From positions 1 through 59,357 of the forward strand of contig JAQBYJ010000028.1 of NCBI GenBank assembly GCA_027622555.1: 59,357 nt of DNA. Reading direction: 5' to 3'. Made by a program: the position numbers and the translations under genes. The first letter of the stretch is position 1. The number at the start of each line of letters is the position of its first letter. Source of the stretch: Verrucomicrobiota bacterium. GTDB taxonomy: Bacteria > Verrucomicrobiota > Verrucomicrobiia > Opitutales > UBA2995. The notes under the pieces were generated by a model. The model had not been told where the DNA came from, ran no database searches, and saw nothing but the letters and a program-made list of their open reading frames with translations. Of this stretch, positions 3,026 to 6,666 are shown piece after piece.

Positions 3026-3364
3026 TATCGGTAATCGTTTTCTTTGATTCTTAATTTGGATAGTACAGATTGTGATTCAAGTCCAGAAATGTTCCTGAAT
3101 TATAAGGTTCTGAATCATGAGGTTCAATTCGAACCTGCGAGAGGCCGTCATGGTTTCAATAATGATTTCCCGGACACCTCCAAGTCCTAATCGGGGAATT
3201 CTTAAAAATCTGAGCACCATCTAAATCAAGCTTTCAGCGGCTTACAAATGATATCATGCGCAATGAGTTTCCAGGGTATAATATTTTTTAAGGAAATCGG
3301 CACTCCAACTTCTGGACTTTGACAGGAAGATTCTTTCTTCTAACTAACTTTGCCAAAACGTTAT
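3026..3364. promoter_or_regulatory. Divergent intergenic region with possible -10 box for the DPM1-like gene
   Basis: About 340 bases separate the leftward sulfotransferase from the rightward glycosyltransferase, so both promoters should lie here. A perfect TATAAT at 3277-3282 points to the right, but the hexamer 17 bases upstream (3254-3259) is a poor -35 match. A 47-codon frame on the minus strand (3077-3220, ATG) encodes a basic, hydrophobic peptide of no recognised family and is not called as a gene. Confidence 0.3.
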
Positions 3365-4153
3365 ATGCCCGAATCAATCAAACTCCTTTCAATAATTATC
3401 CCAGCCAAGGATGAGGTAGGGTGCATCAAGGAGACCCTGCAAAATCTTTTTGCCGCACTGCGACCTAAGGGAATTGCTTTCGAGATTGTAGTGGTGGATG
3501 ACCATAGCTCGGACAATACCTGGAAGATTCTGACAGAAATGCAGGAAGGACATTCGGAAATTCGGGGAGTGAAGAATACCGGCGACCCTGGATTCGGGAA
3601 TGCTATTCAGTTTGGACTCTCGAAAATGTCCGGAGATGCCGTTGTGATTTTTATGGCCGACCAATCAGACGATCCGGCAGACGTCGTTCGCTACTGGCAC
3701 AAACTTAATGAAGGCCATGACTGTGTTTTCGGCAGTCGGTTTGTAGAAGGAGGAGAGATCAAGGACTATCCTACTTTCAAATTTCTACTGAATCGGTTCG
3801 CAAACAAGTTCATTCAAATGATGTTTGGTATTCGTCTGAACGATACCACCAATGCTTTCAAGGCCTACAGAAAAGAGGTCATCGATGGATGCCAACCACT
3901 GCTGTCTCCGCATTTTAATCTGACAGTTGAACTGCCTCTGAAGGCAATCATACGTGGTTACTCCTGGACCGTAATTCCGATCACCTGGCAAAATCGAAAG
4001 AGTGGATCCGCAAAGTTTAAAATCAAGGAGATGGGCAGCCGCTATATCTTCATCATCCTATACGCTTGGCTAGAAAAATTCTTTGCCCGAGGGGACTACC
4101 ACCGGTCCAAAAATCCTCAAAAAAGGGGTCATACCTTGGATCTCGACAAATAA
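3365..4153 (+). CDS. Glycosyltransferase family 2, dolichyl-phosphate mannosyltransferase-like
   Basis: This 262-residue GT-A enzyme opens with SIIIPAKDEVGCIKETL, then EIVVVDDHSSDNTW, FMADQSDDPADV (the metal-binding DxD-like segment) and GSRFVEGG, the signature order of DPM1-type enzymes that load a sugar from a nucleotide donor onto a polyprenyl phosphate. The ATG at 3365 is preferred to the TTG at 3350. The core ends with RYIFIILYAWLEKFFARGDY. The last 13 residues or so and the TAA stop are encoded inside the first copy of the repeat at the left end of the RAYT element, so the original C-terminus may have been replaced by a few residues. The enzyme looks functionally intact. It faces the transposase gene convergently. 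Confidence 0.87.
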   Translation: MPESIKLLSIIIPAKDEVGCIKETLQNLFAALRPKGIAFEIVVVDDHSSDNTWKILTEMQEGHSEIRGVKNTGDPGFGNAIQFGLSKMSGDAVVIFMADQSDDPADVVRYWHKLNEGHDCVFGSRFVEGGEIKDYPTFKFLLNRFANKFIQMMFGIRLNDTTNAFKAYRKEVIDGCQPLLSPHFNLTVELPLKAIIRGYSWTVIPITWQNRKSGSAKFKIKEMGSRYIFIILYAWLEKFFARGDYHRSKNPQKRGHTLDLDK

Positions 4154-4238
4154 ACCTCCACTTGCTTCCACTCCGATCCTCAAAAAAGGGGTCATACCTT
4201 GGATCTCGACAAATAAACCTCCACTTGCTTCCACTCCG
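4113..4238. repeat. Left-end tandem repeat, two exact 63-bp units
   Basis: Unit 1 is 4113-4175 and unit 2 is 4176-4238, identical over 63 bases. Each holds the 28-bp core (reverse orientation) followed by a 35-bp tail. Unit 2 encodes the last 15 residues and the stop of the transposase on the minus strand. Unit 1 encodes the last residues and stop of the glycosyltransferase on the plus strand. Perfect identity points to a recent duplication. Confidence 0.95.
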
Positions 4239-5184
4239 GACTTTCTCCACGGGAAAATCTACCGACAAACTGGCTGACACTCGCGGGATGCCCCATCTTT
4301 AACCGTGCGGCGAGCCAGCCATTGCTCGCTGACGTACGTCTTTTCATGAGCGTCGCCAATATCACTTTTTGTGGGTCCGACTTCAGGGTGCCAAGCTGGT
4401 TTAAAGAGATTCCAAAGTCTTTCGCAAACTGTTCCAGTCGATCTTCCCATATAGATTCGGCCAAGTCTCTCAAGTCAGCTTTGCCCACTTTATTCAACTT
4501 GGCTCTGTCCAGAAATGATTCCTTGTCTTTCAGGCTTTTCAACTGCTCTTTGCGAAACGTCTGACTACCACGGCACCAACCTTTGCTCAACTTCTCAAAC
4601 TCAAGCTCCCGTTGACGCGGTTCATTTTCTGCCAGGGCTTCCAGGTATTGATAATACTTTTTCCAGGCATAGCCGCTGTCTTTCAGTCCTCCCAGAGAAA
4701 TTAAAGCTTCGTCGGGCAGCAGATTGACTGGGCGCATTCGTCTATTCGGCAATAAATGTAAACTGCTCCAGCGATAACTCCCTATCTCTCCCTTCTTTTC
4801 AAGGCCCGCACGCCTTGCATTGAGGTGAATGTAAGAAACCACGTTATTGAGCACACCGGGTTCGATGAGAATCGACTTATAGCGACCCTGGAACGGTCTG
4901 CCTACGCGCTTGAGGAAAAGATTGTTTCTCATCACCCAGGTCCCCTGAAGCCATTTCATTCCCAAACTGAGATTTGGTTCCATCAGTTCCAGAGCCAGAT
5001 GGAAGTGATTGCTCATGATCACATACGCGCTCAGCTTCCAGCCGTACTTATCAATGGCCTCAAAAAGTGCCTTCTCAAAAGACTCAGCAGCTCCAGGCTC
5101 AGTAAAAATATTCTGACGGAAGTTACCGCGGTTGATTACGTGATAACAGGCTCCCTCATACTCTACTCGTGCTTTTCTCGCCAT
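4192..5184 (-). CDS. REP-associated tyrosine transposase (IS200/IS605-type Y1 domain)
   Basis: This 330-residue protein starts MARKARVEYEGACYHVINRG, the standard opening of RAYT proteins, so the ATG at 5184 is preferred to the TTG at 5208. The metal-binding His-hydrophobic-His motif is SNHFHLALE (H60 and H62), and the catalytic Tyr is expected in VSYIHLNARRAG (Y118). FQGRYKSILIE near residue 98 is also characteristic. The enzyme would nick and join single-stranded DNA at REP-like hairpins. Beyond about residue 200 the C-terminal part resembles the DnaA-like helical extension seen in long RAYTs. The frame is intact and the final residues YLSRSKV come from the left repeat core. It is inserted between a glycosyltransferase gene and cysN. 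Confidence 0.88.
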   Translation of the reverse strand: MARKARVEYEGACYHVINRGNFRQNIFTEPGAAESFEKALFEAIDKYGWKLSAYVIMSNHFHLALELMEPNLSLGMKWLQGTWVMRNNLFLKRVGRPFQGRYKSILIEPGVLNNVVSYIHLNARRAGLEKKGEIGSYRWSSLHLLPNRRMRPVNLLPDEALISLGGLKDSGYAWKKYYQYLEALAENEPRQRELEFEKLSKGWCRGSQTFRKEQLKSLKDKESFLDRAKLNKVGKADLRDLAESIWEDRLEQFAKDFGISLNQLGTLKSDPQKVILATLMKRRTSASNGWLAARLKMGHPASVSQFVGRFSRGESPEWKQVEVYLSRSKV

Positions 5185-5208
5185 GCAGAAAGGAGAAAAC
5201 CAAATCAA

Positions 5209-5329
5209 CGAATTTTGTCAAGATCCAAGGTGTGTCCCCTTATTCTCCCCCTCGAATTTTGTCAAGATCCAAGGTGTGTCCCCTTATTCTCCTTCCCCTT
5301 ATTCTCCCTTCTCCGCGCCCTTATTCTCC
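5209..5329. repeat. Right-end repeat array upstream of the transposase
   Basis: Two units starting with CGAATTTTGTCAAGATCC lie at 5209-5252 and 5253-5296 (period 44, differing only in the last few bases). The sub-repeat CCCCTTATTCTCC occurs at 5236, 5280 and 5295, and once more without its first C at 5318. The core is the reverse complement of the left-end core with three substitutions. Inside each core, AAGG and CCTT can pair around a 7-base loop. Confidence 0.92.
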
Positions 5330-5394
5330 GCGCTCCCAAACAAAACGACTCGGATCGCAGGTGAAGGGACGAAAGCCTCGGTTAACCCGACTGA

Positions 5395-6666
5395 CTAAAT
5401 AATCATTCCCGCAGCGACGGTGGCATTGGTATTTATGTCAACCAGTATGAAACTTCCAGTCGTTCGGTTATTTTTATAACTGTCGTAGAACAGTGGTGCT
5501 GAAACCCTCAGACTGATACGACCCACTTCGTTCAATTTGAACTCAGGATCGCCCTCCAACTTATGCAAGGTGTTAACATTCACTTTGTAGCGGGATTCGC
5601 GAACGATGGCCTTTACTTCCTTAGTGGTATGTTTCATTAAAAACCGACTTCCTGGACGCAAGGTCTCGTTATCTGAGAACCAACAAATCATGGCTTCGAT
5701 ATCCTGGCCCACGTTAGGTTTATTGTTGGGCTTAACAATCATATCCCCTCGACTGATGTCGATGTTATCATAAAGAAGCATCGAAACCGATTGAGGAGCA
5801 AAGGCTTCACTTTGTTCTCCATCCATTGAATGGATAGATTTTATCCGACTATTGAATCCAGAAGGCAAAACCGTGACTTCATCACCTGGCTTGAAAACAC
5901 CACTGGCAATACGCCCGGCATAACCCCTGAAATCGTGATGTTCGGCTGATTGAGGCCGTATGACCCATTGGACCGGAAATCGAGCATCCACGTGATTTTG
6001 AGCATCTCCGATGTAAACCGTTTCCAGCGTTTCCAATAGTGGCGATCCCCCGTACCAGGGCATATTCTTAGAACGATCGACGACATTGTCTCCAAGTAAA
6101 GCACTTATAGGAATAAACCGGACATCGGCTAAATCCAAACGGGATGCAAATTTTCTAAAATCGGACTCAACTTTGCGGTATGCCGCTTCATCCCAATCCA
6201 CGAGATCCATTTTATTTACACACACTACTATGTGCTGGATCTGTAAAAGCGTGGCAATAAAGGCATGTCGGCACGTTTGCTCGATCACTCCATTTCGCGC
6301 ATCGACAAGAAGGATGGCCAAATTTGCGGTCGAGGCACCCGTTACCATATTTCGCGTGTACTGAATATGACCAGGTGTATCAGCTATAATGAATTTGCGG
6401 CGCGGAGTAGCATAGTAGCGGTAAGCGACATCGATCGTGATGCCTTGCTCTCGCTCCGCTTTCAAACCGTCTGTTAATAGGGCAAGGTTAACATTTTCAT
6501 CGCCCTTCTTTTTAGAGGAGACTTCGACAGCATCCCACTGGTCTTCAAAGATCGATTTACTGTCGTACAACAATCGCCCGATCAGCGTACTCTTACCATC
6601 GTCGACGCTACCCGCCGTGGTAAAGCGCAGTAGGTCCATATTCGTGTCTTGTATGTCTGATTCCAT
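5395..6666 (-). CDS. cysN: Sulfate adenylyltransferase subunit 1 (GTPase)
   Basis: This 423-residue protein has the EF-Tu-like GTPase motifs GSVDDGKS (residues 19-26), DTPGH (96-100) and NKMD (151-154), followed by two beta-barrel domains. With CysD it makes adenosine 5'-phosphosulfate from ATP and sulfate, using GTP hydrolysis to drive the reaction. The length is that of stand-alone CysN, so it is not a CysNC fusion, and the kinase is a separate gene upstream. It is the last gene of cysC-cysD-cysN, starting 8 bp after cysD. The end of the RAYT array lies about 65 bp past its stop codon. Confidence 0.96.
   Translation of the reverse strand: MESDIQDTNMDLLRFTTAGSVDDGKSTLIGRLLYDSKSIFEDQWDAVEVSSKKKGDENVNLALLTDGLKAEREQGITIDVAYRYYATPRRKFIIADTPGHIQYTRNMVTGASTANLAILLVDARNGVIEQTCRHAFIATLLQIQHIVVCVNKMDLVDWDEAAYRKVESDFRKFASRLDLADVRFIPISALLGDNVVDRSKNMPWYGGSPLLETLETVYIGDAQNHVDARFPVQWVIRPQSAEHHDFRGYAGRIASGVFKPGDEVTVLPSGFNSRIKSIHSMDGEQSEAFAPQSVSMLLYDNIDISRGDMIVKPNNKPNVGQDIEAMICWFSDNETLRPGSRFLMKHTTKEVKAIVRESRYKVNVNTLHKLEGDPEFKLNEVGRISLRVSAPLFYDSYKNNRTTGSFILVDINTNATVAAGMII

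Follow-up and report, generated by a model that had tools for sequence, protein, structure and literature searches.

A TIRtron-type Y1 transposase element of Verrucomicrobiota with direct 7-nt repeats and fixed-boundary arrays at its ends

The window analysed here is 59,357 nt of a contig from a Verrucomicrobiota bacterium of the Opitutales. On direct reading it contains a gene for a Y1 (HUH) transposase on the minus strand (4192-5184), placed between inverted 31-nt ends with 87% complementarity between left and right. Reading the neighbouring sequences, we take the flanking genes to be a glycosyltransferase-type gene (3350-4153, plus strand) and cysN (5395-6666, minus strand). The glycosyltransferase-type reading frame enters the element at 4113-4153, and the element supplies its last ~13 residues and its stop codon. 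Its counterpart in genome G004 has a different C-terminal end.

An earlier note on this DNA described one core on both sides of a single transposase gene, in opposite orientation, with two copies on each side and periods of 63 and 44 bp. Our reading agrees: there are two full end copies per side, with a period of 63 bp on the left and 44 bp on the right. The 28-bp core of that note is a real repeat, although it is only part of a longer end that includes a 12-13 nt linker outside CCCC. On the left, two 63-nt units (4113-4175 and 4176-4238) are exact tandem copies, and each holds 28 nt of element interior besides core and linker. The inner one overlaps the 3' end of the transposase gene, whose stop codon is the TGA of TGACCCC (4192-4194). 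The right side carries exact 40-nt copies (5209-5248 and 5253-5292, period 44). The extra sub-repeats that had been reported beyond them are also there, as truncated CCCCTTATTCTCC (5295-5307) and CCCTTATTCTCC (5318-5329). The features are as follows (heptads are the 7-nt repeats discussed below).

4113-4175, minus strand: outermost left unit, an exact tandem copy of 4176-4238
4113-4124, minus strand: its 12-nt linker, with the outer boundary exactly 12 nt from TGACCCC
4125-4131, minus strand: its TGACCCC, followed by spacer and heptads
4134-4140 (TCCAAGG) and 4141-4147 (GTCGAGA), minus strand: its heptads, followed by 28 nt of element interior
4176-4238, minus strand: inner left unit, identical to the outermost left unit
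4192-5184, minus strand: transposase gene, identified by Pfam Y1_Tnp, an alignment of 32 relatives, an AlphaFold2 model and fold matches
5209-5252, plus strand: inner right unit, with heptads GTCAAGA (5217-5223) and TCCAAGG (5224-5230) and spacer TG
5233-5239 and 5240-5252, plus strand: TGTCCCC and 13-nt linker, the outer part of the inner right unit
5253-5294, plus strand: second right unit, with heptads (5261-5274), TGTCCCC (5277-5283) and an 11-nt linker
5295-5332, plus strand: truncated right units, CCCCTTATTCTCC (5295-5307) and CCCTTATTCTCCGCG (5318-5332)

The whole element spans 4113 to about 5332, because the 12-13 nt linker outside CCCC belongs to it. No close empty site was found for the right side, where the end would fall at about 5330-5333 by the 12-13 nt rule.

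The transposase has 330 amino acids counted from a conserved ATG and 338 from an upstream TTG at 5208. It matches Pfam Y1_Tnp (PF01797) above the gathering score (E 2.6e-8) and reaches 41 bits with NCBIfam REP_Tyr_transpos, under the cut-off of 80. The window copy is intact, with the HUH motif NHFH and the catalytic tyrosine in YIHLN. In an alignment of 32 relatives, from which one frameshifted relative was left out, the HUH histidines are invariant and the tyrosine nearly so; the window copy has YIHLNA where most relatives have YIHLNP. We modelled the protein with AlphaFold2 (pLDDT 84.7). Residues 9-209 of the model match the E. coli TnpA-REP structure 4ER8 with Z 16.4 (157 aligned, rmsd 2.8), and IS608 and ISDra2 come well under this with Z 9-11. 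The closest solved fold is thus a REP-associated transposase, as expected for the RAYT-type protein proposed earlier. For the C-terminal domain, sequence searches of Pfam, PHROGs and the PDB gave no useful match. In the model, residues 241-338 align with residues 292-399 of DnaA 2HCB (Z 8.0, rmsd 3.6, 93 aligned), a moderate match for a helical domain. As modelled, this helix-turn-helix domain therefore appears to resemble DnaA domain IV.

The kind of element is already known. By its motifs, ends and predicted fold it is a TIRtron with its transposase (TIRYT) of TnpA-Y1 subclass 2.1, since it combines a RAYT-like fold and a DnaA-like C-terminus with the GGGGWSAS motif. The motif is exact in the right end (GGGGACAC, the reverse complement of GTGTCCCC in the inner right unit) and matches at 7/8 positions in the left end (GGGGTCAT). 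In the part of the description by Di Nocera et al. 2013 available to us (PMC3733652), TIRtrons likewise have a RAYT-like Y1 gene, GGGGWSAS and long inverted repeats unrelated to GTAG REPs and standing in their place, with the repeat also in solitary and clustered copies elsewhere. That part describes no direct-repeat architecture, outer variable linker or fixed-boundary end arrays. Quentin et al. 2018 (PMC6006769) placed most TIRYTs in TnpA-Y1 subclass 2.1 (RAYT group 1 of Bertels). The window protein shares with this subclass the motifs NH[YF]H and Y[IV]HLN(P), here NHFH and YIHLNA, a long C-terminal domain similar to the DnaA C-terminal helix-turn-helix (by the model, related to Bac_DnaA_C), and the lack of a canonical REP. 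No associated REP-like structure was found in that study, whereas we propose here a recognition block and ends. The canonical REPtron mark, GTAG/GTRG at the foot of a stable hairpin, is absent from the window ends.

Next, we looked at how widely the ends occur. With up to 3 mismatches allowed, a 22-nt core has 25 occurrences in the 6.0-Mb genome and the reversed pattern, as control, has 1; this is far beyond chance. The genome-wide search suggested earlier thus finds the core well outside the window: it recurs in its own genome and in same-genus genomes, and related forms of it appear in other families and orders. A further 24 places in the genome match the transposase; about ten of these are full-length or nearly so, and the others are fragments. 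This Opitutales-type host also carries many miniature derivatives, and in some of these the first 36 transposase residues are fused to the 3' end. The named relatives found were all Verrucomicrobia, chiefly MAGs of Opitutaceae/Opitutae. Nearly all Verrucomicrobiota loci come from drafts or MAGs, with many copies at contig ends. In G000, many copies on contigs C3, C94, C104, C133, C157, C160, C201 and C207 lie within ~110 bases of contig ends or are cut. The elements probably broke the assembly there, and therefore the copy numbers are lower bounds.

A plasmid search found five short relatives in other phyla (L212-L216: Legionella, Sporomusa, two Skermanella and Acetoanaerobium). These distant relatives also carry ends of the TGACCC or GTCCC type, and most of them have short linkers in repeated copies. 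Our script detected arrays in the Legionella and both Skermanella relatives and found none in the Sporomusa one; the Acetoanaerobium relative has truncated copies with a less clear anchor. Some loci are more complex. L003 (1634-2680) carries another gene of RAYT type (MRNARLKVLGQSAVYHCVTRV...), different from the first, next to a TIR that has an CCCCTTTGGCTGT array of its own. L171 (G000:C184, 855-1030) has linker repeat sets ATACTCCCTCTG, then TTCGGCTGTCC, then the end of another TIR family, a succession suggestive of elements inserting at the ends of earlier ones. At L054 (G002), beside cysN, two inverted TIRs lie within about 60 bp with no gene, as a REPIN-like doublet; G005 (L053), of the same genus as G002, has the corresponding empty site.

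We located the true element boundary by comparing flanks with uninterrupted homologous sequence among all loci. At 17 ends without arrays, homology restarts at +7 to +15 past TGACNNC, with a median of +13. At ends with arrays it restarts directly behind the last unit. Examples are an element of G125 within another insertion sequence (L152 vs L173, 90% identity), L028 vs L113 (93%) and L161 vs L137 (91%). For the left end of the window element, homology to the same locus without the element in G004 restarts at +15. Since homology restarts at about +13, the 12-nt stretch is the outermost part of the element itself. It is not host flank carried into the array: the uninterrupted sites show this, and related copies have similar linkers although they lie at separate loci. 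Nor is it a target-site duplication, as the two linkers of one element differ.

The linker has T at position 2 (0.86), some G at 5 and C-rich positions 10-13 (0.41-0.55). It is otherwise freely variable, and from +14 the composition is near background. Read by eye, the linkers of two ~93% identical G125 elements differ at about 20-35% of positions, comparable to the adjoining non-coding sequence. In G125 copy A, one linker is 20 nt long and one duplication lies near +8, which counts against a fixed distance.

About a quarter of the 229 extracted ends carry tandem duplications, truncated to varying degrees (58 independent cases); among 4000 control windows, 29 (0.7%) show a tandem copy across the random point. 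The outer boundary of these arrays is fixed and the inner one varies. The boundary interval includes +11 to +13 in 52 of the 58 duplications, and the mis-anchored L030 would be the 53rd. One exceptional case (G317, L166) has the boundary at +4. Inner starts range from -113 to 0; in many families they concentrate at TGAC, with no preceding base in common. Successive linkers in the right array of the window diverge in their final 2-10 nt (CCCT, TT, CTTCTCCGCG, GCG).

The spacing is specific to lineage. In loci fetched after this view of the boundary was formed, the boundary lies at 9-16 (mostly 10-14) in Opitutales and at 4-6 in other Verrucomicrobiota classes, where L236 and L241 each have one long ambiguous interval more. 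Outside Verrucomicrobiota it lies at 8 in Legionella, 9 in Skermanella mucosa and 5-8 in S. rosea. The distance therefore follows the transposase lineage.

We infer from these boundaries that they mark the cleavage site of the transposase. One strand would be cut 12-13 nt outside TGACNNC, following a C; the protein, not the linker sequence, would set this distance, and the cut site would be the true end of the element. Upon rejoining or repair, the cut end may sometimes be joined to an inner point of the same element end, mostly between -9 and 0 relative to the TGACNNC end and sometimes 15-110 nt inside. The tandem copies produced in this way would share the cut site as their outer limit. A nick at a set distance after C would explain where the element ends, why positions 10-13 are C-rich and why the outer array boundary is fixed and depends on lineage, and rejoining to inner points, or repair around the nick, would account for the variable inner starts. 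Boundaries after C would also fit TnpA-REP, which cuts single-stranded DNA at C|T near REP (PMC8266576). A simple one-cut model leaves the preference for TGAC starts unexplained, as it does the differing last linker bases in the right array of the window.

Two main rivals would explain the arrays without faulty rejoining at a nick. Replication slippage without the transposase would make them ordinary tandem expansions, with the outer boundary being merely where the element sequence stops. Short units, nested truncations and microhomology of 2-5 nt at some junctions agree with this, and tandem REPIN clusters including flanks are known (PMC3116915). However, about half of the junctions have no microhomology, and nothing in slippage would make it halt at the element boundary, when adjacent host sequence could just as well be copied. 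Where the linker resembles nothing else the boundary loses none of its sharpness, and it shifts with the transposase lineage. We find slippage alone rather unlikely, though it is the rival to be taken most seriously.

In the second, serial one-ended transposition, solo ends acting as mini-elements of ~19-64 bp would excise or copy and reinsert beside the parent end. Comparable mobilisation has been proposed for REP and REPIN. Units often run from a TGAC start to a stop at +12/13 like a discrete mini-element, and solo ends and the REPIN-like doublet occur at new loci. Yet a unit whose start falls within or beyond TGACNNC has no heptads and would escape recognition, and the starts scatter over more than 100 nt. 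We consider this explanation improbable.

Just inside TGACNNC lies a block made of two direct 7-nt repeats and a 2-nt spacer, in forms such as GTCAAGA-GTCAAGA-CC-TGACGTC, TTCCGGA-TTCCGGA-CG-TGACCCC, GTCCAGA-GTCCAGA-TA and TATGAAA-TATGAAC-AT; the window version is GTCAAGA-TCCAAGG-TG-TGTCCCC. Among curated ends, picked by the analyst from transposase-linked ends, identity reaches 0.56 at lag 7 and 0.16-0.32 at the remaining lags. Within a family the first and second heptad match at 4.64 of 7 positions, vs 2.42 between families, a value reached by 0 of 20000 permutations. The uncurated set gives z 6.0, at lag 7 only. In later-fetched loci the repeat is at 7 nt in new Opitutales types (z 2.4) and at 8 nt in other classes (z 4.3), where the ends are mutually related. 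Judged from sequence, a heptad pair that changes together between families is what would be expected of a site read twice by one DNA-binding module, and the DnaA-like C-terminal domain is the candidate for this module.

The earlier note had asked what the transposase recognises if not a palindrome. This was the right question, and the conserved feature is the pair of direct 7-nt repeats with TGACNNC. The weak internal stem AAGG/CCTT it pointed to is rejected as the recognition feature, as it is not conserved among relatives. Single-stranded folding, also suggested there, gave 0.0 and -0.6 kcal/mol for the window ends, which hardly fold and contain no stable hairpin, and -4.8 kcal/mol at best for other families. 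A hairpin GTC-a-ATATC-CAA-GATAT-GAC is present in some copies of the same family and degraded in the window's own. Canonical REP-type recognition, in which the end is such an imperfect hairpin and the direct repeats are incidental, is very improbable: several families have weak stems (ATATC/GATAT, TCCGG/CCGGA, CGCG/CGCG) and the mean longest stem is 3.5 vs 3.16 in shuffled sequences (3 of 200 shuffles as high), but the window's own ends have neither fold nor GTAG/GTRG, and repetition at lag 7 keeps a consistent register and far exceeds stem formation in strength.

Taken together, the best explanation is a transposase with an HUH/Tyr nuclease domain and a DnaA-domain-IV-like domain that would recognise its end through the heptads and TGACNNC, cut 12-13 nt outside and build arrays by faulty rejoining. 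We give this reading as a whole, including that the element is an active or recently active TIRtron, slightly better than an even chance.

Such a transposase would differ from its better-known relatives. REPtrons/TnpA-REP and REPINs of E. coli and Pseudomonas fluorescens (PMC3116915, PMC8266576) share with it the HUH-Tyr core, non-autonomous relatives, tandem clusters carrying flanks and cleavage after C, which is inferred here. The P. fluorescens REPIN clusters, with units including flanking sequence, are the nearest described arrays (PMC3116915). In contrast, the window element has no GTAG guide or stable hairpin, and it has symmetric inverted ends and a fixed outer array boundary. The IS200/IS605 elements IS608 and ISDra2 have the same Y1 nuclease fold and cleavage sites distant from the recognised structure (PMC5934647). 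IS608 uses guide sequences to select cleavage sites that are external to its hairpins, with guide-cleavage base pairing and asymmetric ends, whereas the window ends have no stable hairpin. It is possible, though we hold it only tentatively, that TIRYTs are a mechanistic departure among Y1 enzymes, with DnaA-domain-IV-like binding of direct repeats, a protein-ruler cut free of hairpin and guide, and arrays built by miscutting. If so, the direct repeats would be 7 bp in Opitutales and 8 bp in other classes, the ruler would measure about 5-6, 8-9 or 12-13 nt by lineage through freely variable DNA, and the arrays would be a record of transposase activity across phyla.

As far as the literature searched shows, with most subscription papers outside it, the direct-repeat architecture, the outer linker and the fixed-boundary arrays are new. 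The analysis also shows that the inverted repeats reported to date stop short of the element's ends. Group 1 RAYTs/TIRYTs are a large Y1 class for which the published census found no REP-like target structure (PMC6006769). Our results offer a concrete candidate for the block that they recognise, predict where the enzyme of each lineage would cleave and point to natural footprints of activity, all of which can be tested directly by the existing cleavage and strand-transfer assay.
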